A stretch of 22,973 bases of DNA from a virus: IMG/VR virus record IMGVR_UViG_3300038786_000051, positions 1 through 22,973 of that record, one strand, 5' to 3'. The notes beneath the pieces are model-generated. The model was not told the DNA's origin. It saw only the letters and a list, made by a program, of their open reading frames with translations, and did no database searches. Shown here piece by piece: positions 6,775 through 22,611 of this stretch. The position numbers and the translations under genes are program-made. Each line of letters begins with the position of its first letter. Position 1 is the first letter of the stretch.

Positions 6775-7485
6775 TTACATAAACAATACTTGATTGATTC
6801 GATTATGTTCTTTAAACATTCCAAGGTCGACATTTTGTCCGTGAAGAACCTCTGATTGATATAATGCCATTCGATTGTATTTCATCTCTATTCCGTATTC
6901 ACAAGTATATGGCTTACCACCATCAACTTTGGATTTAATATATTCAAACTCTACATCATCAATTTCATCTTCTTTGTCTATCAGCCACTGTGGAGAATAG
7001 TTGTCTTTTAGACTCATTTCTCCAAAATGACTATACAAATTTGTACCACCTGCACATTCTTCTGGAGAATTTAAATACACCACACTTCCAAACTGAAAGC
7101 CGGGTCCTGGGTCACTCTCACAATAATCTTGGTGAGGGATTATTCCCATTGGATTCTCCTTTAAGAGAGAATCATTTAAAACATTCAACAAGAATATTTG
7201 ATTGTTCCAATTCTCATTAAACTTCTCTTCATTAAAGTCTCCGAAGTAATTCTTACAGAGATGATAATATACGGCGTTTAACTTTTCCTTTACTTCTGGA
7301 GTGTTTACAATTCCCCTCGTTCCTGGGAATGCACCCTTCAACTCTCTTGAACTGACATAATCTAAAGATAATGCAAGGTCCCTAATTTCATCAGGATTCT
7401 TGTAAAAATTATCAATAATAACTGCCCTTCTTCCTTTGATATCTGTAACCACTTCTATCTTCATCTTTTCATTTACTTCAAACAT
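6775..7485 (-). CDS. DUF6445 / 2OG-Fe(II) oxygenase-like protein
   Basis: The 236-residue protein has the N-terminal signature VIIDNFYKNPDEIRDLALS (residues 22-40) followed by FPGTRG, which I recognise from the DUF6445 family of prolyl-hydroxylase-like proteins. The iron-binding triad of 2-oxoglutarate dioxygenases is visible: H118-x-D120 in PHQDYCESDPG, H215 in SEVLHGQN, and R229 as candidate 2-oxoglutarate anchor in RINQVLF. The strand with ECAGGTNLYSHFG between them fits the double-stranded beta-helix core. Such enzymes use Fe(II), oxygen and 2-oxoglutarate to hydroxylate a side chain or small molecule; the substrate here is unknown. The gene lies inside the baseplate operon, 7 bases downstream of gp5 (stop at 7497) and 12 bases before the 779-residue gene, with AGGAAAA as ribosome site. 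Confidence 0.75.
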   Translation of the reverse strand: MFEVNEKMKIEVVTDIKGRRAVIIDNFYKNPDEIRDLALSLDYVSSRELKGAFPGTRGIVNTPEVKEKLNAVYYHLCKNYFGDFNEEKFNENWNNQIFLLNVLNDSLLKENPMGIIPHQDYCESDPGPGFQFGSVVYLNSPEECAGGTNLYSHFGEMSLKDNYSPQWLIDKEDEIDDVEFEYIKSKVDGGKPYTCEYGIEMKYNRMALYQSEVLHGQNVDLGMFKEHNRINQVLFM

Positions 7486-12491: not shown

Positions 12492-13088
12492 ATGAAGATA
12501 TCAGAATTCAGTAATCAGGCATACGGTAGTTATTACGACTATCTAAGGACTAACCTATTCAGTGTAGAATTCTATAAACCAACTGGTCTCCCAGAGTTCT
12601 ATAATGGTGCATCAGATGCCAACACCAAGCGGCTGTCTTATATGTGTAAGTCTATTTCAATACCGGGCAAATCAGTAGGCACAATTGATGCTAAACGATT
12701 TGGACCAATTTTTAAAGTAGCAAATGATATGATTGTCGATACAGTAGCAATGACTTTTATGTGTAGTGCCCAAGATATGCTGGAGCATCGGTTCTTTGAG
12801 GGATGGATTGCGGCTATAACAGGAAACGTCAAAGACGCAGGAAGACAGAAATATACATTATCGTATTATGACCAATATTGGAGTACCCTTAGAATTGTTC
12901 CAGTTACAAGACTTCACGCACAACAAACTCCATCTGTAATATTAGAAGAGGCTTATCCGACTAATGTAGGACCGATAGAATTAGCGTGGGGAGATAGTTC
13001 AGATGTTGCTACCTTTACTGTTACCTTTACAATGAGAGACTGGCGCTGGGATGGAGATTCAACTTACTGGGCCGACAGTGAAAATTAA
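12492..13088 (+). CDS. Tail-tube-fold protein (gp19/gp54-like)
   Basis: The 198-residue protein looks like a tube-fold protein of contractile tails. It opens with YLRTNLFSVEFYKPTGLPEF, continues with RLSYMCKSISIPGKSVGTID (the conserved Cys and IPG turn region), then VDTVAMTFMCSAQDMLEHRF with FFEGWIAAI, and ends with a strand ELAWGDSSDVATFTVTFTMR followed by DWRW. That order of strands and the FxxW-like helix are shared by T4 gp19 (163 residues) and the tube initiators gp48 and gp54. The length is above gp19 and below gp54 (320), so which role it has, main tube or initiator, is open. It lies directly before the gp26 and tape-measure genes, the usual place of a tube gene in many tailed phages. 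The start follows the previous stop by two bases. Confidence 0.7.
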   Translation: MKISEFSNQAYGSYYDYLRTNLFSVEFYKPTGLPEFYNGASDANTKRLSYMCKSISIPGKSVGTIDAKRFGPIFKVANDMIVDTVAMTFMCSAQDMLEHRFFEGWIAAITGNVKDAGRQKYTLSYYDQYWSTLRIVPVTRLHAQQTPSVILEEAYPTNVGPIELAWGDSSDVATFTVTFTMRDWRWDGDSTYWADSEN

Positions 13089-13116
13089 ATTTATATAAAA
13101 TAATGGAGTGATAATT

Positions 13117-13866
13117 ATGGCTTTACCGAAAATTGAAACACCGATTTACACATTAAAATTGCCTTCTAATGGCAATAGTGTATCATATCGACCATTTCTT
13201 GTGAAAGAAGAGAAAATTCTTTTAACAGCAATGGAAGGGGCTAAGACCCTAAAGGGCACAGAATTTGCTACCGCAGTGAGAGATGTGATTATTAGAATCA
13301 TTTCTAACTGTACTGAGGGAAAGATAGATGGTAATAAATTACCAGCGTTTGATGTAGACTTTCTATTTTTGAATATTAGAGCGAAGAGTCGTGGAGAAAT
13401 TATTGAACCGTCCTTTACTTGTAATCAAGAAGTTGATGGGGCTACGTGTGGACAGACCGATAAGTTTTCTGTTAAGATTGATACGATTGCGATTGATTTT
13501 GCAGAGGATGACCATTCTAAAATAATGCTGAATGACCAAGTCGGAGTTCAACTTAAATACTTGACTACTGAAGAATTAGCATATCACGATTCAGAAAAAG
13601 ATACAATCGAAAAGATGTTTAAAGTTATTGTTGATTCTATTGATTATGTATTTGATGGAGAAGGAGTTTACAAAGGCTCAGAAACATCTAAGACAGAATT
13701 GACAGAGTTCGTAGAGAATTTACAAGAACCTGTTTTCGATAAAATTAAAGATTTCTTTGCTAATCAACCTACACTGAGGCACACTATAGATTATAAGTGT
13801 TCTAAATGTGGACATAGCGAAGATGTAGTATTGGAGGGTCTGGAGGATTTTTTCGGCTTTGCATAA
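13117..13866 (+). CDS. 26: Baseplate hub protein gp26 family / probable tail assembly chaperone, 0-frame product
   Basis: The 249-residue product (T4 gp26 has 208) matches the T4 baseplate protein family: ALPKIETPIYTLKLPSNGN, then VSYRPFLVKEEKILLTAMEG, VDFLFLNIRAKSRGEIIEPS, and a C-terminal zinc-ribbon-like CSKCGHSEDVVLEGLEDFF. Four Cys (102, 111, 228, 231) could bind zinc across two loops. Start: the ATG at 13117 is preceded by GGAG at eight bases; a GTG nine bases upstream overlaps that ribosome site and is less likely. The last codons hold a T_TTT_TTC heptamer, and a fraction of ribosomes is predicted to slip into the -1 frame and make a 305-residue fusion (see 13854-14033). The role in T4 is hub assembly; the context suggests a chaperone for the tape measure. 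Confidence 0.85.
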   Translation: MALPKIETPIYTLKLPSNGNSVSYRPFLVKEEKILLTAMEGAKTLKGTEFATAVRDVIIRIISNCTEGKIDGNKLPAFDVDFLFLNIRAKSRGEIIEPSFTCNQEVDGATCGQTDKFSVKIDTIAIDFAEDDHSKIMLNDQVGVQLKYLTTEELAYHDSEKDTIEKMFKVIVDSIDYVFDGEGVYKGSETSKTELTEFVENLQEPVFDKIKDFFANQPTLRHTIDYKCSKCGHSEDVVLEGLEDFFGFA

Positions 13867-13916
13867 GTTATGATAATCTTATAAACCATTATAAGACTAA
13901 TTTCCAACTTATGCAA
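13848..13916 (+). promoter_or_regulatory. Programmed -1 frameshift signal: slippery heptamer plus stem-loop
   Basis: In the gp26 frame, positions 13848-13854 read T_TTT_TTC, a canonical X_XXY_YYZ heptamer. After a four-base spacer (13855-13858), TTGCATAAGTT at 13859-13869 pairs perfectly with AACTTATGCAA at 13906-13916 (11 bp). Inside, TCTTATAA at 13877-13884 pairs with TTATAAGA at 13889-13896 (8 bp) across the loop ACCA. The gp26 stop codon lies inside the stem, as in many frameshift sites. Heptamer, spacer and structure are read directly from the sequence; frameshifting itself is inferred. Confidence 0.8.
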
Positions 13917-14033
13917 CACCACAATTACAGCCTCAGCGACCTAGAAAATATGTTGCCTTATGAACGAGACATTTATGTTCGTTTATTGAGTCAATGGTTA
14001 GAAGAAGAAAAAGAACGGCACAATGCAACTTAA
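13854..14033 (+). CDS. -1-frame extension of gp26 (tail assembly chaperone C-terminal part, gp51-like position)
   Basis: After slippage on TTT TTC the -1 frame continues as RLCISYDNLINHYKTNFQLM and ends with LSDLENMLPYERDIYVRLL and a charged helix (SQWLEEEKERHNAT), 59 residues in all, stopping at TAA 14031-14033. The stretch with Leu-Pro-Tyr-Glu-Arg-Asp resembles C-terminal parts of tail assembly chaperones, where a Glu-rich helix follows. An independent start is unlikely: the first in-frame ATG (13911) has no ribosome site, lies in the predicted stem, and would give only 40 residues. An ATG at 13870 is in another frame and stops after four codons. In T4 the gene after gp26 is gp51 (249 residues, hub assembly catalyst); this one is far smaller. 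The tape-measure-like gene follows at 14056. Confidence 0.75.
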   Translation, partial: RLCISYDNLINHYKTNFQLMQHHNYSLSDLENMLPYERDIYVRLLSQWLEEEKERHNAT

Positions 14034-14055
14034 TAGATTGTAAGGCGGAGATAAG

Positions 14056-17000
14056 ATGAGTACACCGACATTAATGAAAATGATGGCCACTTATGGCTTG
14101 GCCAAAGAGGGTATAGGCAAAGTCAAAGGTGGAATTGACAAGGTCAAAAAGATTACGGGTACTGGCTCTGCTACAGAAAGAATGGACAACAAGATTGCCA
14201 AGGAAGCGGCGAAACAGGCGAAGATAGTTGCTAAAGACGCCGCAGACGCCCGTCACGAAGAGGCAGTTGAATATCTCCGTAAAGATGGTGAGTTTTATCA
14301 GAAGATGCTTGATAAGATGTCCATTATGTCTGAGAAAGTAGAGGTGGCGACAGAACAAAAAGCAGAAACAAGTACAACTGAGCAACCTCAAAGTTCCGAA
14401 ACTAAATCCAAAGCCGTTCCTACTATCACCGCCGGCAGTTCAATTGGTAAATCACCAGATTCTTCTAGTGTAAAACCAACTGAAGGTGGTGTCGTACTGA
14501 ATACAGATGAAGCAATGCCTGTTACTAATGAGGCATTGAATGAATTACTAGAAGGCCAAAAAGAATTACTTGCTATTGATGCCCGAAGAGATAAGCGTGA
14601 AATCAAAGCAGAACGTAGAGCATTAGAAGACCGTAGAGATAAAAAGGGACTGGGATTGCCCAAAAAGAACGGTGCGCCTCTGTTGAATAAGAAAGCCGCA
14701 GGTGGTTTATTTTCTACAATCGCTTCTGGACTTGCGTCTGTGCTTAGTGGACCAATTGGCAAAATTGGATTAGCAGTTGCTGGTATGGCTACGGGTCTAA
14801 CTGCTCTGAAGATGATGCTCAATAAAATTCCTGGAGTAAACCTCAAGGTCGATGACCCTGATAAAAAAGGACCAAAGAAGACCGTACCAAAACCCAAGCC
14901 AGGCGCAGACAAATCCTTATTGAAGGCTGCCGAAGAACAAAAAATCAAAAACGCTAAGAAGGCGGAAATAAAAAAAGCAAACGCATTAAAGAAATTTCAC
15001 GCCATCGAAGCGGCGGCAGAGAAGAAGAGGTTAGCACTCAAGCCCAATAAAGTTTCTGGTGTAGTTAAAGGCGTAGGAATTAACGGACCTGCTGGTGGTT
15101 CCAAACCAGGAATAGCAATAGACAAATCTAAAATTACAGTGGGTAGAGCCCCTAATGGACAGTTCACTCCATTGAAACAGCCAGTGACACCGAAGATTTC
15201 AACTGCTCCTAAGATATTCAGCAATCCACCAGGTACTCCTCGAAATATTAATACCACTCCACCGAAGATGCCAGTGTTTAAAAATCCACTAGGTTCTCCT
15301 GGAAATATTAATACCACTCCTCCAGTAAAACCAAATAAAATATTCAGCAATCCAAAAGGAACGCCTAGAAATATTAATACGTCACGAGTACCACCAGTTG
15401 AACCAAATAAAATATTCAGTAGAAATATTAATACGTCACGAGTACCACCAGTACCGAGTGCGGCACGAGTACCACCAGTACCGAGAACTCCAATCAATGC
15501 AATGACTTTGGCTCCGAAGGGTAATATGTTGCCCAACTTTTCAAATACACGCATTGCTAACTCCAAGGTTGGAACAAAAACTGCGGAAATTACTGCTAAA
15601 GCGGTTACAAAACTGGCAGAGAATACACCTACTATAATAAAAACTACCGCACAAACTGCCCTCAAAACTGCATCAGTAATTGCAACAAAGGCGGCTGTTC
15701 CGTTGACTATTATCGCATCCGGGTATGAAGCCTTCACAACAGAAAATGACGATACCCTGAACAGAGATGAAAAGAATGCTAAACACGTTGGAACAGGTGG
15801 CGGATTAGCAACTGCAACTGCAATGGGTATGGCAGGTGCCGCGGTTGGCTCAGTTGTTCCAGTAGTTGGAACTCTTATCGGTGGACTTACCGGGGCCGCA
15901 ATAGGCTACTTTATGGGAAAATATGGTGGAGAGAAATTAGGGGAAGAGTTATTCCTTGACGGTAAAGAAATTGGTGACCCAACACTAGAAGCCTCTGCAT
16001 CTGAAGGCGGTAAAGGTGGTGAGACTAAAGAAGAAATGGATATGGTATTGGCCAAGCAAGCCCAAGATTCTGGTGCAGTAGACATTGGATGGGGTGATGC
16101 AGATATCGATGACTTAGAAAAGTTAAAAGATTTAACTACAGAACAAGTTCAGGCTCTTCTTGACGTAGAGACTTGGTCTAAAGCAGATGAAGAAATGCTG
16201 AAGAAAGTTCTTGATGCTAAGAAAAATGGACTAACAATAACACACGATGATGGTGGTTGGTTAGGGAAAGAAAGTCTTGAATTTGAAAAGGGCTCAGACA
16301 CGGCGGAAAATGCCGCTAAACTTTCACCAGTTAAACATCTAAATGCAGATGGAACCCCATACGTTGAACCGAATACTCTTGCCGCACAAACCAAACGTGC
16401 CGAAGGTATGCCAGAAAATAATCTCGAATTGTCTAGTGGTTTTTCAGAACGTAAATTCTCACAAGAAGACCCAGAGTCATATAAAAAATTCAGAGCGTAT
16501 ATGAAAGAAAACAAATCCGCTCGTAGAGAAGAGAATGAAGCGTCCGGTAAGAAAGGCAAAAGATATAGACGTACAGAAGAAATGTTCGCTAAGGCCGATG
16601 CCATAAAGTTGTTCGCTAAAGAAATCGCTCTTGCAAATGCTGCCACGTTTAGAGATAAGAGGACTAAGATAGAATATACACCTGAAAAAGATGTAGATTT
16701 AAGTAATGTCAGTGGTGTAAAACCACCAAGCCAGACACCAACTAATCCAAATATGATGGGACTAACTGCTCAAGAGTTTGAGGAAATTACTCCTGATGTA
16801 GATGCACAGGATGCCTTCTATAGTGCAGGTAATAATCCGGGTTCAATATACACACACGATATGCACCTAGAAAAGATTTTAAACGGAGATGGGGATAAGG
16901 ATTCGATATTCAAACTTAAAACTTTGCGACCTAATTCTCTACCTCCACTTAGTAACAGTAACTTAGCACCGGAAATAACTCCAGTTGCGGGTTCTAATCT

Positions 17001-17247
17001 AACACCAGTTGCCGCAGGAGATGCTCAAGCGAATGTTGGTGCTGATAAACTAAAAGAAGACACTGTTACTCCTGCAATGTCGGCTGCGAAGAATGGAAGT
17101 GCTGGAGGAGGGGGAACTACGGTCATTAACAACACTACTGATAATAGCCAACGTAACTCTAGCGTTAATAATCAAAACTCGACGGCTCACGCTCCATCTA
17201 GTCCGCCGGGTATAGGACATATGGGGGTAACCACCCCAAGAGGATAA
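14056..17247 (+). CDS. Predicted tape-measure protein (gp29-like position)
   Basis: The 1063-residue protein is the largest here. N-terminus: helical, Lys-rich (GLAKEGIGKVKGGIDKVKK), then a coiled-coil-like region to residue 110. Hydrophobic, Gly/Ala-rich segments lie near 213-255 (LFSTIASGLASVLSGPIGKI onward), 525-560, and 580-620 (GLATATAMGMAGAAVGSVVP with VVGTLIGGLTGAAIGYFMGK), the kind of membrane-active zipper found in tape measures. Between them is a Pro-rich repeat region (residues 386-479). The C-terminus is Gly/Asn/Ser rich (GGGGTTVINNTTDNSQRNSS). I infer tape-measure function from size, hydrophobic segments and its place after the tube-fold and chaperone genes; T4 gp29 has 590 residues and no clear sequence match is claimed. 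A good ribosome site (GGCGGAG) precedes the ATG. Confidence 0.65.
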   Translation: MSTPTLMKMMATYGLAKEGIGKVKGGIDKVKKITGTGSATERMDNKIAKEAAKQAKIVAKDAADARHEEAVEYLRKDGEFYQKMLDKMSIMSEKVEVATEQKAETSTTEQPQSSETKSKAVPTITAGSSIGKSPDSSSVKPTEGGVVLNTDEAMPVTNEALNELLEGQKELLAIDARRDKREIKAERRALEDRRDKKGLGLPKKNGAPLLNKKAAGGLFSTIASGLASVLSGPIGKIGLAVAGMATGLTALKMMLNKIPGVNLKVDDPDKKGPKKTVPKPKPGADKSLLKAAEEQKIKNAKKAEIKKANALKKFHAIEAAAEKKRLALKPNKVSGVVKGVGINGPAGGSKPGIAIDKSKITVGRAPNGQFTPLKQPVTPKISTAPKIFSNPPGTPRNINTTPPKMPVFKNPLGSPGNINTTPPVKPNKIFSNPKGTPRNINTSRVPPVEPNKIFSRNINTSRVPPVPSAARVPPVPRTPINAMTLAPKGNMLPNFSNTRIANSKVGTKTAEITAKAVTKLAENTPTIIKTTAQTALKTASVIATKAAVPLTIIASGYEAFTTENDDTLNRDEKNAKHVGTGGGLATATAMGMAGAAVGSVVPVVGTLIGGLTGAAIGYFMGKYGGEKLGEELFLDGKEIGDPTLEASASEGGKGGETKEEMDMVLAKQAQDSGAVDIGWGDADIDDLEKLKDLTTEQVQALLDVETWSKADEEMLKKVLDAKKNGLTITHDDGGWLGKESLEFEKGSDTAENAAKLSPVKHLNADGTPYVEPNTLAAQTKRAEGMPENNLELSSGFSERKFSQEDPESYKKFRAYMKENKSARREENEASGKKGKRYRRTEEMFAKADAIKLFAKEIALANAATFRDKRTKIEYTPEKDVDLSNVSGVKPPSQTPTNPNMMGLTAQEFEEITPDVDAQDAFYSAGNNPGSIYTHDMHLEKILNGDGDKDSIFKLKTLRPNSLPPLSNSNLAPEITPVAGSNLTPVAAGDAQANVGADKLKEDTVTPAMSAAKNGSAGGGGTTVINNTTDNSQRNSSVNNQNSTAHAPSSPPGIGHMGVTTPRG
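15211..15492 (+). repeat. Proline-rich tandem repeats inside the tape-measure-like gene
   Basis: The encoded segment has four copies of a unit centred on R/G-N-I-N-T (codons at 15241, 15301, 15367, 15421; spacing 60, 66 and 54 bases), with KIFSNPxGTPRNINT as fullest form. The last two copies share 32 identical bases (15367-15398 and 15421-15452). A second, 27-base repeat follows, encoding ARVPPVP twice (from 15437 and 15464). Near-perfect DNA identity points to recent in-frame duplication. Confidence 0.85.
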
Positions 17248-17614: not shown

Positions 17615-18481
17615 ATGGAAAATATTCAAGAAGTAGGAACCACGAATGCTGATATCGGTACTGCCGATTTTAGTTTTAATACGCTCATCGAAACATTTGA
17701 AGAGTTGCCAACCATCTCACTATTGAGAGCCGTGGCGGCAGTTGTTCCTATGAAAATGAGTACAGGCTCTATCATCAATCTTAAACGAGATGCGGCAACG
17801 AATTCGTTTAAGACGGTACAAGCGGCCTTAACCATCAATACTGCATCATCAAATCCAATTCAATCTGGATTATCAATGGAAGCATTACGTGATTTGTACA
17901 ACCAATATCAATTGGATGGATACAAGATTGCGGCGAATCTATTGAAGGGTATTACTGACCAGGCAGAAAATGATGCTTTCATCACCTTTCTTAATGCCAA
18001 CTCATTAAATACTCCAGTGTTAACTTTGACTGCACCAGGAAATGCAGAGCAAAATTTGTTTGAAATTACTCAGAGAGTTCAAGAACTTGTTATTAAGATG
18101 AACACTCCTAACTTCAGAACATTTGATGCTTTCGCTATTCTTCCTTATAAAGTGGCAGCCGCTATATCCGCTCTAAGTGGATATGCTCGTGGAGACGATG
18201 ACACTGAAGATAGATTGATTGTTAACAAGATGGGTAAGACTAGATACTACGTCAACCCAGATGTTACAGCCACACAAGCCTATGTTGGATTAGGTAGCAG
18301 AGATAAGAGTTCTATGGGCTCGACTTCAGTTATTATGGGTACATTCCCACAAGAACTATTGCGGTCACAGAATGTAGAATCTTTCCAAGGCAATATCGGT
18401 ATTCTAAACCGTTATGCTACGGCAGCCAATCCACTATCTGTCGCTGGTTCAGAAATGTTAATGGAATTCGCAATAGCGTAA
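17615..18481 (+). CDS. Short gp23-like HK97-fold capsid protein paralogue
   Basis: The 288-residue protein resembles the core of T4 gp23/gp24 in order. An early segment LLRAVAAVVPMKMSTGSIIN matches the VQPM-GPTG-I region of gp23. A spine-helix-like segment follows (SMEALRDLYNQYQLDGYKIA and AANLLKGITDQAENDAFITF), where gp23 has its long helix of AKYTLELAQDLKAVHG type. Then come RTFDAFAILPYKVAAAISAL, VNKMGKTRYYVNPDVTATQA-YVGLGS and a C-terminal strand pattern GILNRYATAANPL like the GxxxRYGLxxNP of gp23. T4 gp23 has 521 residues and an extra insertion domain; this protein lacks room for it. It may be a minor head or vertex protein or a decoration protein; the true gp23 is probably outside the window. 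AGGAAT is the ribosome site. Confidence 0.55.
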   Translation: MENIQEVGTTNADIGTADFSFNTLIETFEELPTISLLRAVAAVVPMKMSTGSIINLKRDAATNSFKTVQAALTINTASSNPIQSGLSMEALRDLYNQYQLDGYKIAANLLKGITDQAENDAFITFLNANSLNTPVLTLTAPGNAEQNLFEITQRVQELVIKMNTPNFRTFDAFAILPYKVAAAISALSGYARGDDDTEDRLIVNKMGKTRYYVNPDVTATQAYVGLGSRDKSSMGSTSVIMGTFPQELLRSQNVESFQGNIGILNRYATAANPLSVAGSEMLMEFAIA

Positions 18482-20092: not shown

Positions 20093-20115
20093 CACCCTTA
20101 TTTTCCGAATGTCAA
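20087..20115 (-). promoter_or_regulatory. Perfect consensus sigma70 promoter for the gp32 operon
   Basis: On the minus strand TTGACA (20115-20110) and TATAAT (20092-20087) stand 17 bases apart, the exact consensus with optimal spacing. The thyX stop codon lies between the two boxes. Transcription would start near 20080, about 52 bases before the TTG of the first gene. Such strong promoters are typical for early phage genes read by unmodified host polymerase. Confidence 0.85.
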
Positions 20116-21087
20116 GTGTTTTTTTACATTAATTGCATATTTTCTCACTTCTAATTGGGCGTGAGGGTCTTCCCGTAGTTCAATCAATCTCCTATAAGCA
20201 AAGATTGACCCAGTTTCGACAAACTCAGTATACATCGATTGAGGTAAAACTGACCGTGCTTGTTCAGGACAAATGTTCTCATCGTTCATCAATTCGTTAT
20301 ATTTAGATGTTATGCTCTCAGTCGCATTGGCAATCCATCCCTGCATATCTCCAGAATGTCTATGAACTTCGTTAGAAGAACCTTGTTTAACAGATGGTGC
20401 CTGAAGTCTCCATTCATTTGGAATAAAGAACTCTGGAGCATCCGAAACGTAGCGTCTACTAACTTCATTTCTAGTAAATCCAATCTGGTGCTTATACCAC
20501 TGCCTAGCAATAAAGATAGGCATCTTAATACGGAACTGAGCGACCTTTAGTTTTTGAGCATTCCATCCAAGTCCTTCATATAACTCTATTTTATTCCACC
20601 AATCATTATCAACATCAGCCAACATAGGTGTCCAGTCTTCGACCAAATGGGGGTCAGCAGATTGGAACATAGGAACATTGAAGGCTCTCAAACTGAGTTC
20701 GTTGTTTCCCCACATTGATGCGGTAATGATACCGTGTTTGATGAACGCATAGAGAGAGCCACGCTCATAGAACCTGACACCACCATCTCCCATACTAATG
20801 ACTGCACGAACAAATTGTTCATCGGCAGACTTAGCACACCACACAACATAATCTTGAGTAGTCATTTTTCGCTCAAGCATATATTGAGCGTGGGAAAACG
20901 GAGTCCAATGTTGATGCTTGGCTAGATAGTTAATTAGTCCAGCATCTTTATCTTGAACTTCGGTGTGGATTTTGTGCATAGAAACCCTGGCCGCATTAAC
21001 TACCTGCAGGTCAGAGGGTTCAATTGGAAGTCTTTCAATTGAAGAAACTCCATCCCCCAATGGGTCTAAAATACCAAGGCTACGCAT
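20098..21087 (-). CDS. thyX: Flavin-dependent thymidylate synthase ThyX, with large insertion
   Basis: ThyX makes dTMP from dUMP with FAD, NADPH and methylene-tetrahydrofolate. Family segments are seen in order: NAARVSMHK (31-39, the ARVS region), LINYLAKHQHWTPFSHAQY (51-69), PIFIARQWYKHQIGFTRNEV and SRRY (190-213), and CPEQARSVLPQSMYTEF (273-289) with HAQLEVRKYA at the end. Two things are odd. The usual RHRX7S signature reads K199-H200-Q201 with eight residues before S210. About 124 residues lie between TPFSH and PIFIARQ, where most ThyX proteins have some 15 to 25, so about 100 are inserted. Length is 329 against 220-250 normally. The start overlaps the upstream gene by eight bases. It supplies thymidylate for phage DNA synthesis independent of the host enzyme. 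Confidence 0.9.
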   Translation of the reverse strand: MRSLGILDPLGDGVSSIERLPIEPSDLQVVNAARVSMHKIHTEVQDKDAGLINYLAKHQHWTPFSHAQYMLERKMTTQDYVVWCAKSADEQFVRAVISMGDGGVRFYERGSLYAFIKHGIITASMWGNNELSLRAFNVPMFQSADPHLVEDWTPMLADVDNDWWNKIELYEGLGWNAQKLKVAQFRIKMPIFIARQWYKHQIGFTRNEVSRRYVSDAPEFFIPNEWRLQAPSVKQGSSNEVHRHSGDMQGWIANATESITSKYNELMNDENICPEQARSVLPQSMYTEFVETGSIFAYRRLIELREDPHAQLEVRKYAINVKKHLTFGK

Positions 21088-21947: not shown

Positions 21948-22174
21948 AATGGCAATACACTACCTGGTTCTTCGTCATCTGCAATTTGATTATTCTTTAT
22001 TGCTTCTGCACTAACTTTCACAAGAAACGCAGGAGAGATTAACTTCGCTACTGCTTTTGGTTCTATCTGGTGTTCAACCATATACTCAACCATTGCATCG
22101 ACATAGGACACTCCTCCGTCAATTCGTTCTTCAATCAATAGTTGAAACGCTTGTTGTTTATTCACTTTTCTCAT
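21944..22174 (-). CDS. 33: Late transcription co-activator gp33 (short form)
   Basis: The 76-residue protein resembles the C-terminal two thirds of T4 gp33 (112 residues): GVSYVDAMVEYMVEHQIEPK against GMSYLEATTAFLEENSIPET, then AKLISPAFLVKVSAEAIKNN against AKFIPSGIIEKIQSEAIDEN. gp33 links the gp45 sliding clamp to RNA polymerase at late promoters and binds the polymerase flap. The hydrophobic C-terminus (SVLPL) may be the clamp contact, as the T4 C-terminus is. Most of the T4 N-terminal arm is missing. It starts at the last base of the HIT gene stop (TAATG), with GGAAGGGGAA as ribosome site, and overlaps gp59. Confidence 0.8.
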   Translation of the reverse strand: MRKVNKQQAFQLLIEERIDGGVSYVDAMVEYMVEHQIEPKAVAKLISPAFLVKVSAEAIKNNQIADDEEPGSVLPL

Positions 22175-22611
22175 TAATATTTCCCCTTCCCTGGAATTAC
22201 ATTTCTGATTCCCCCGGTGGGGTCCTCGCCAATATCGTCTTTCCGTCTAGGAATAAGATGGACGTGGGCGTGTTCAACTGTTTGACCAGCATCGAAGCCG
22301 TTATTAAATCCTACATTGAAACCAGTAATTGTGGCATCTATTTTCATCAATTCTTCCTTTGAGTAGTTAAGAATTTCGTGTAGAGCCAGCACTTCTTTTC
22401 TACTTAAATCAAATATCTCGGCTGTGTGTCTTTTAGGTATCAACAAAGTATGATACTGAGTCACCGGGAAATTGTCTCGTACTGCAATGAACAAATCATT
22501 CTTAACAATTGACTTGCCCTCTGTAGTGTAGAATTGTTGTTCTCCAGAGAAAACTTGACTCTGGTGCCAAACAACTTCGTGCTTAATATTACAAAATATA
22601 CAATCTTTCAT
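22174..22611 (-). CDS. HIT-family nucleotide hydrolase/transferase
   Basis: The 145-residue protein carries the histidine triad H114-A-H116-V-H118 in GQTVEHAHVHLIPRRKDD, with H118 at the end of the triad and H116 as the likely nucleophile by family rule. The N-terminal CIFC (Cys4, Cys7) and the segment YHTLLIPKRHTAEIFDLSRK fit the HINT/Fhit-like branch, and DPTGGIRNVIPGKGKY is a typical ending of phage and bacterial HIT proteins. Members cleave nucleoside phosphoramidates or dinucleoside polyphosphates; the substrate here is unknown. The start MKDCIFC is the usual family start, and no ribosome site precedes it, see the promoter entry. It precedes gp33 and gp59 in the replication cluster. Confidence 0.88.
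   Translation of the reverse strand: MKDCIFCNIKHEVVWHQSQVFSGEQQFYTTEGKSIVKNDLFIAVRDNFPVTQYHTLLIPKRHTAEIFDLSRKEVLALHEILNYSKEELMKIDATITGFNVGFNNGFDAGQTVEHAHVHLIPRRKDDIGEDPTGGIRNVIPGKGKY

Follow-up and report, generated by a model that had tools for sequence, protein, structure and literature searches.

Two overlapping reading frames at the end of a phage gp26 gene raise the question of whether the second frame encodes a protein of its own or is the end of the first, reached by ribosomes that change frame. The stretch of DNA analysed here (the window) covers positions 1-22,973 of IMG/VR record IMGVR_UViG_3300038786_000051, from an uncultured T4-like phage. On its + strand, a gp26-like gene (13117..13866) encodes the short chaperone form (TAC-N) of 249 aa, and a gp51-like -1 frame extension (TAC-C) of 59 codons and a stop follows at 13854..14033. 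Both parts gave significant profile matches within the gp26/gp51 family, with PF12322 T4_baseplate (E 8.6e-59) and phrog_150 (E 4e-66) for the former and phrog_634, baseplate hub assembly catalyst (E 9.1e-25), for the latter. The chaperone gene sits between a tail tube-like gene of the gp54/gp19 type upstream (12492..13088, +; phrog_45 tail tube, E 3e-36) and, directly downstream, a tape-measure-like gene whose protein is the probable client (14056..17247, +; phrog_794 tail length tape measure protein, E 4e-13), as is the case for TAC-N/TAC-NC frameshift genes. By inspection, gp26 has a Shine-Dalgarno (SD) sequence GGAG at 13105-13108 ahead of its ATG at 13117; the tape-measure-like ORF has its own SD GGAG at 14047-14050 and ATG at 14056.

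Several other genes of the window were recorded. A Gp23-like capsid protein (17615-18481, +; PF07068, E 1.1e-7) has just 288 aa and is shorter than T4 gp23. A ThyX-type thymidylate synthase is encoded at 20098-21087 (-; PF02511, E 1.4e-33), and its motif region, RQWYKHQIGFTRNEVSRRY, appears to differ from the usual RHRxxS signature. A HIT-domain protein (22174-22611, -; PF01230, E 1.6e-19) lies near phage structural and replication genes, and a DUF6445 protein (6775-7485, -; PF20043, E 2e-14) is inserted between baseplate genes.

Shortly before the end of the first frame, an in-phase heptamer of the X_XXY_YYZ type links it to the second. The slippery heptamer T_TTT_TTC (13848..13854, +) stands in the phase GAT TTT TTC GGC TTT GCA TAA, in which the final TAA is the gp26 stop codon (13864..13866, +), located within the 5' arm of a downstream stem. 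From 13854 onwards the -1 frame stays open until its stop at 14031-14033, and its first ATG is codon 20 (13911), inside the conserved domain. No Shine-Dalgarno sequence was found ahead of this ATG, whereas gp26 and the next gene both have one. The two products would measure 249 aa (short) and 246+59 = 305 aa (long). The original prediction had proposed the in-frame heptamer shortly before the gp26 stop, an open -1 frame of 59 codons lacking its own start signal and both product lengths, and all of these were confirmed.

The comparison set consisted of 80 relatives from IMG/VR together with a panel of regions from named phages, and counts were restricted to the 98 loci where the gp26 stop is reached. 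Slip sites were chosen by the protein FF motif alone and not by the heptamer; a count with loci selected by the heptamer was circular and was replaced. The FF motif ends gp26 in 92 of the 98 loci, all 92 of which carry T_TTT_TTY, and three loci with FL in place of FF retain T_TTT_TTA or T_TTT_TTG, so that T_TTT_TTN is found in 95/98. Clustering at 80% protein identity left 70 representatives with the FF motif, and the heptamer is present in every one. The codon before FF ends in T in 70/70, against 40 expected from codon usage (a chance of about 10^-17.8), and the first Phe codon is TTT in 70/70, against 49 expected. The residue ahead of FF varies (S, D, N, A, G or H), which indicates that this T is not kept for the protein. 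The slip signal is confirmed to be strongly conserved and not a product of chance.

The three exceptions to T_TTT_TTN are Vibrio phage K469 and two Ackermannviridae, at 22-24% identity. These phages read CTTTTTG, CTTTTCA and ATTTTCA at the site, and the slip site, if any, is a different one. An open -1 frame with a gp51-like MPWHL motif nevertheless persists after gp26 in all three (L096:3208-3405, L097:3226-3441 and L098:3292-3465). In the loci that retain the heptamer the -1 frame is likewise open and conserved, also in phages that have no usable start codon. Among close relatives, dN/dS of the extension was about 0.06-0.27 where dS could be computed, which indicates purifying selection on the -1 frame.

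Upstream of the slip site, the gene contains a Shine-Dalgarno-like GGAGGG (13833..13838, +) at a distance of 9 nt from the heptamer; this element is a candidate frameshift stimulator. Of 73 representatives, 35 carry SD-like 5-mers within this 21-nt stretch, as opposed to 12.3 expected from codon-preserving shuffles, and no such excess was seen in four control stretches. Positions 13833-13847 hold two SD-like motifs, GGAGGG and GGAGGA, just ahead of the heptamer. GGAGGG occupies a conserved LEGL position, where codon choice across relatives is biased to GAG GG. We found no earlier description of an SD-like element upstream of the heptamer in the part of the literature consulted.

Downstream, the predicted 11-bp perfect stem (13859..13869 with 13906..13916, +) enclosing an 8-bp hairpin (13877-13884 with 13889-13896, +) is present in the sequence. 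The structure has a folding energy of -20.3 kcal/mol (z -6.2 against dinucleotide shuffles), and the stem reaches z -4.4 against codon-preserving shuffles, in which the protein of the -1 frame and its codon usage are unchanged. In 10/10 members of the window's clade, the 78 nt that follow the slip site fold with z between -3.9 and -6.4; averaged over 80 loci, z is -1.43 for these nucleotides and -0.27 for the stretch after them. Within the clade, nine pairs of the outer stem are kept, one of them with a compensatory change from A-U to G-C (L008, L010 and L011); this covariation is modest, a single pair in one lineage that falls short of decisive under the shuffle and slide controls. The register of the inner hairpin is not conserved in relatives. 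A gap between heptamer and stem exists as predicted, although the conserved spacer measures 6 nt and not the predicted 4, as the invariant core of the 5' arm starts from G13861. A stem conserved across the whole family was considered and rejected, as many loci have z near 0 and many relatives with the heptamer have a weak stem or none. An Rfam search gave no credible match. The stem is real in the window's clade, and the structure is variable elsewhere. The alignment of relatives, which the prediction had proposed as a check, thus upheld the heptamer broadly and the stem, with its one compensating pair, in that clade only.

Three other explanations for the broken frame were weighed. A one-base gap in a run of T is a typical error of sequencing or assembly, which could split one gene into two; the break recurs at one position in 95 loci, some of them in finished cyanophage genomes, and the error reading is refuted, its probability being negligible. 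The run of six or seven T could also induce RNA polymerase to slip, giving mixed mRNAs that encode both forms. Six T followed by C is, however, a short run when compared with the nine A or T on which bacterial transcriptional slippage has been described (Atkins review, PMC5009743), and most relatives do not have a longer run. Moreover, selection on the RNA structure and the SD-like element acts where such signals typically sit in ribosomal frameshifting. We consider slippage during transcription very improbable.

Slightly less improbable, and still a slim prospect, is that gp51 is a separate small protein produced by reinitiation or translational coupling just past the gp26 stop. S-PM2, S-SSM7, P-SSM2 and others have a -1-frame ATG right after the stop, which is annotated as the gp51 start, and relatives from Rhizobium, Vibrio and Stenotrophomonas have overlapping TGATG or TAATG. 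Across the 82 distinct loci, however, 60 have no ATG, GTG or TTG within 8 codons after the slip, and only one of the 22 with a nearby start codon has an SD match. The loci with such an ATG retain the heptamer regardless, the window's own first ATG lies inside the conserved domain, at codon 20, and T4 gp51, being a fused form, speaks against a separate small gp51. Given this scarcity of start codons and SD sequences, reinitiation cannot be the common mechanism, but in some lineages it may contribute to expression.

Further insight into the frameshift reading was provided by phages of the T4 group. In T4, Aeromonas Aes508 and Krischvirus MIZ3, gp51 is a single-frame protein with a complete PF12322 domain ahead of the extension, and the alignment to T4 gp51 runs unbroken through the window's frame-shift point, with the extension aligning to the gp51 C-terminus. 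T4 and Merlin gp26 retain FF, but written TTC TTT and lacking the heptamer; no in-phase heptamer was found near the gp26 end in any of the 4 gp26 genes of the T4 group. The slip site is gone where a dedicated gene encodes the long form, and no other single argument speaks as strongly for production of that form being what the heptamer is for. In a tree whose long branches make exact placement uncertain, the gp26 proteins of T4, Aes508 and MIZ3 form one clade and their gp51 proteins another, which fits one duplication. Judged from these alignments, T4 gp51 is the fused long form, and T4 gp26 corresponds to the short form after loss of the heptamer. The duplicated paralogues of T4 would then correspond to the short and long products of the one frameshift gene found here.

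Taken together, one gene very probably yields both the gp26 short form and the gp26-gp51 long form by -1 slippage. This fusion, as first predicted, is well supported by conservation, the absence of a start site, purifying selection and the fused homologue T4 gp51. Most ribosomes would terminate at 13866 and release the 249-residue short form (gp26, TAC-N). From the sequence, its conservation, the homology and the duplicated state in T4, we infer that a minority would move back by one base at U_UUU_UUC and read past the stop, the extra 59 residues making the 305-residue long form (gp26-gp51, TAC-NC). Slippage at this presumed low rate would probably be aided by pairing of the upstream GGAGGG with 16S rRNA and by the downstream stem. 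Counting against it, the U-run heptamers U_UUU_UUA and U_UUU_UUU are less shift-prone than A_AAA_AAG in E. coli (Atkins review, PMC5009743). The two products are most naturally read as a pair of chaperones for the tape measure. If they act as lambda gpG/gpGT does, the tape-measure protein encoded next would be coated by many copies of the short form and few of the long one, and the extension would recruit the tube protein. The structure of the short form is predicted with confidence (pLDDT 89.5); Foldseek and sequence searches against solved structures returned no significant match for it, the HK97 tail assembly chaperone 2ob9 matching weakly (E 1.2, prob 0.41).

The identification has consequences for annotation. 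In public records, gp51 is annotated from an internal ATG in HTVC008M, Melnitz and Syn19 and is unannotated in ACG-2014i and Aeromonas CC2, as would be expected if no real start exists. Public records leave the extension out, truncate it or give it a wrong name, and correcting this would affect hundreds of marine phage genomes. The T4 gp26 and gp51 proteins, long treated as separate hub proteins, would in the cyanophage-type branch be two products of one frameshift gene.

The principle itself is not new. Vladimirov, Gautam and Davidson (2022, Virology 566:9-15) reportedly identified the tail assembly chaperones of T4-like phages and their frameshifting, which is reported to be conserved in several T4-like groups, with the T4 group using separate genes. 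PMC10885494 summarises the arrangement of a short gene plus a fused gene (separate genes) from that work, and in PMC12846349 the poly-T slippery signals of TAC-N genes in T4-like phages are treated as known from it. The claim that no gp26/gp51 frameshift had been described has been wrong since 2022. The present result thus amounts to an independent and correct rediscovery, in a new phage. Its genes and their arrangement are identical to those of the T4-like TAC-N/TAC-NC genes; the window adds an uncultured contig and its clade, and the SD-like element and the clade-specific stem are possible additions to the known frameshifting, as further stimulators.

In T4, gp26 and gp51 have domains homologous to the window's two products but are two divergently oriented genes with no heptamer, and they are listed as hub assembly chaperones, gp51 being required yet absent from the virion (PMC3004832). 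Frameshifting of the G-T type is widely conserved in long-tailed phages except T4 (Atkins review, PMC5009743). Lambda gpG/gpGT likewise comprises a short form and a -1 frameshifted long form encoded just upstream of the tape-measure gene, whereas its protein family is unrelated by sequence to the PF12322 protein of the window. The slip site of lambda is G_GGA_AAG, and that of the window is U_UUU_UUC. The E. coli dnaX -1 cassette similarly combines an upstream SD-like element, a heptamer and a downstream stem, with a different gene and a different heptamer; in the window the SD-like element is a candidate stimulator. We tentatively suggest, with rather less than even confidence, that T4-like chaperone genes use a dnaX-like three-part cassette, in which an internal GGAGGG, U_UUU_UUC and, in some clades, a long stem would tune the short-to-long ratio in a lineage-specific manner.
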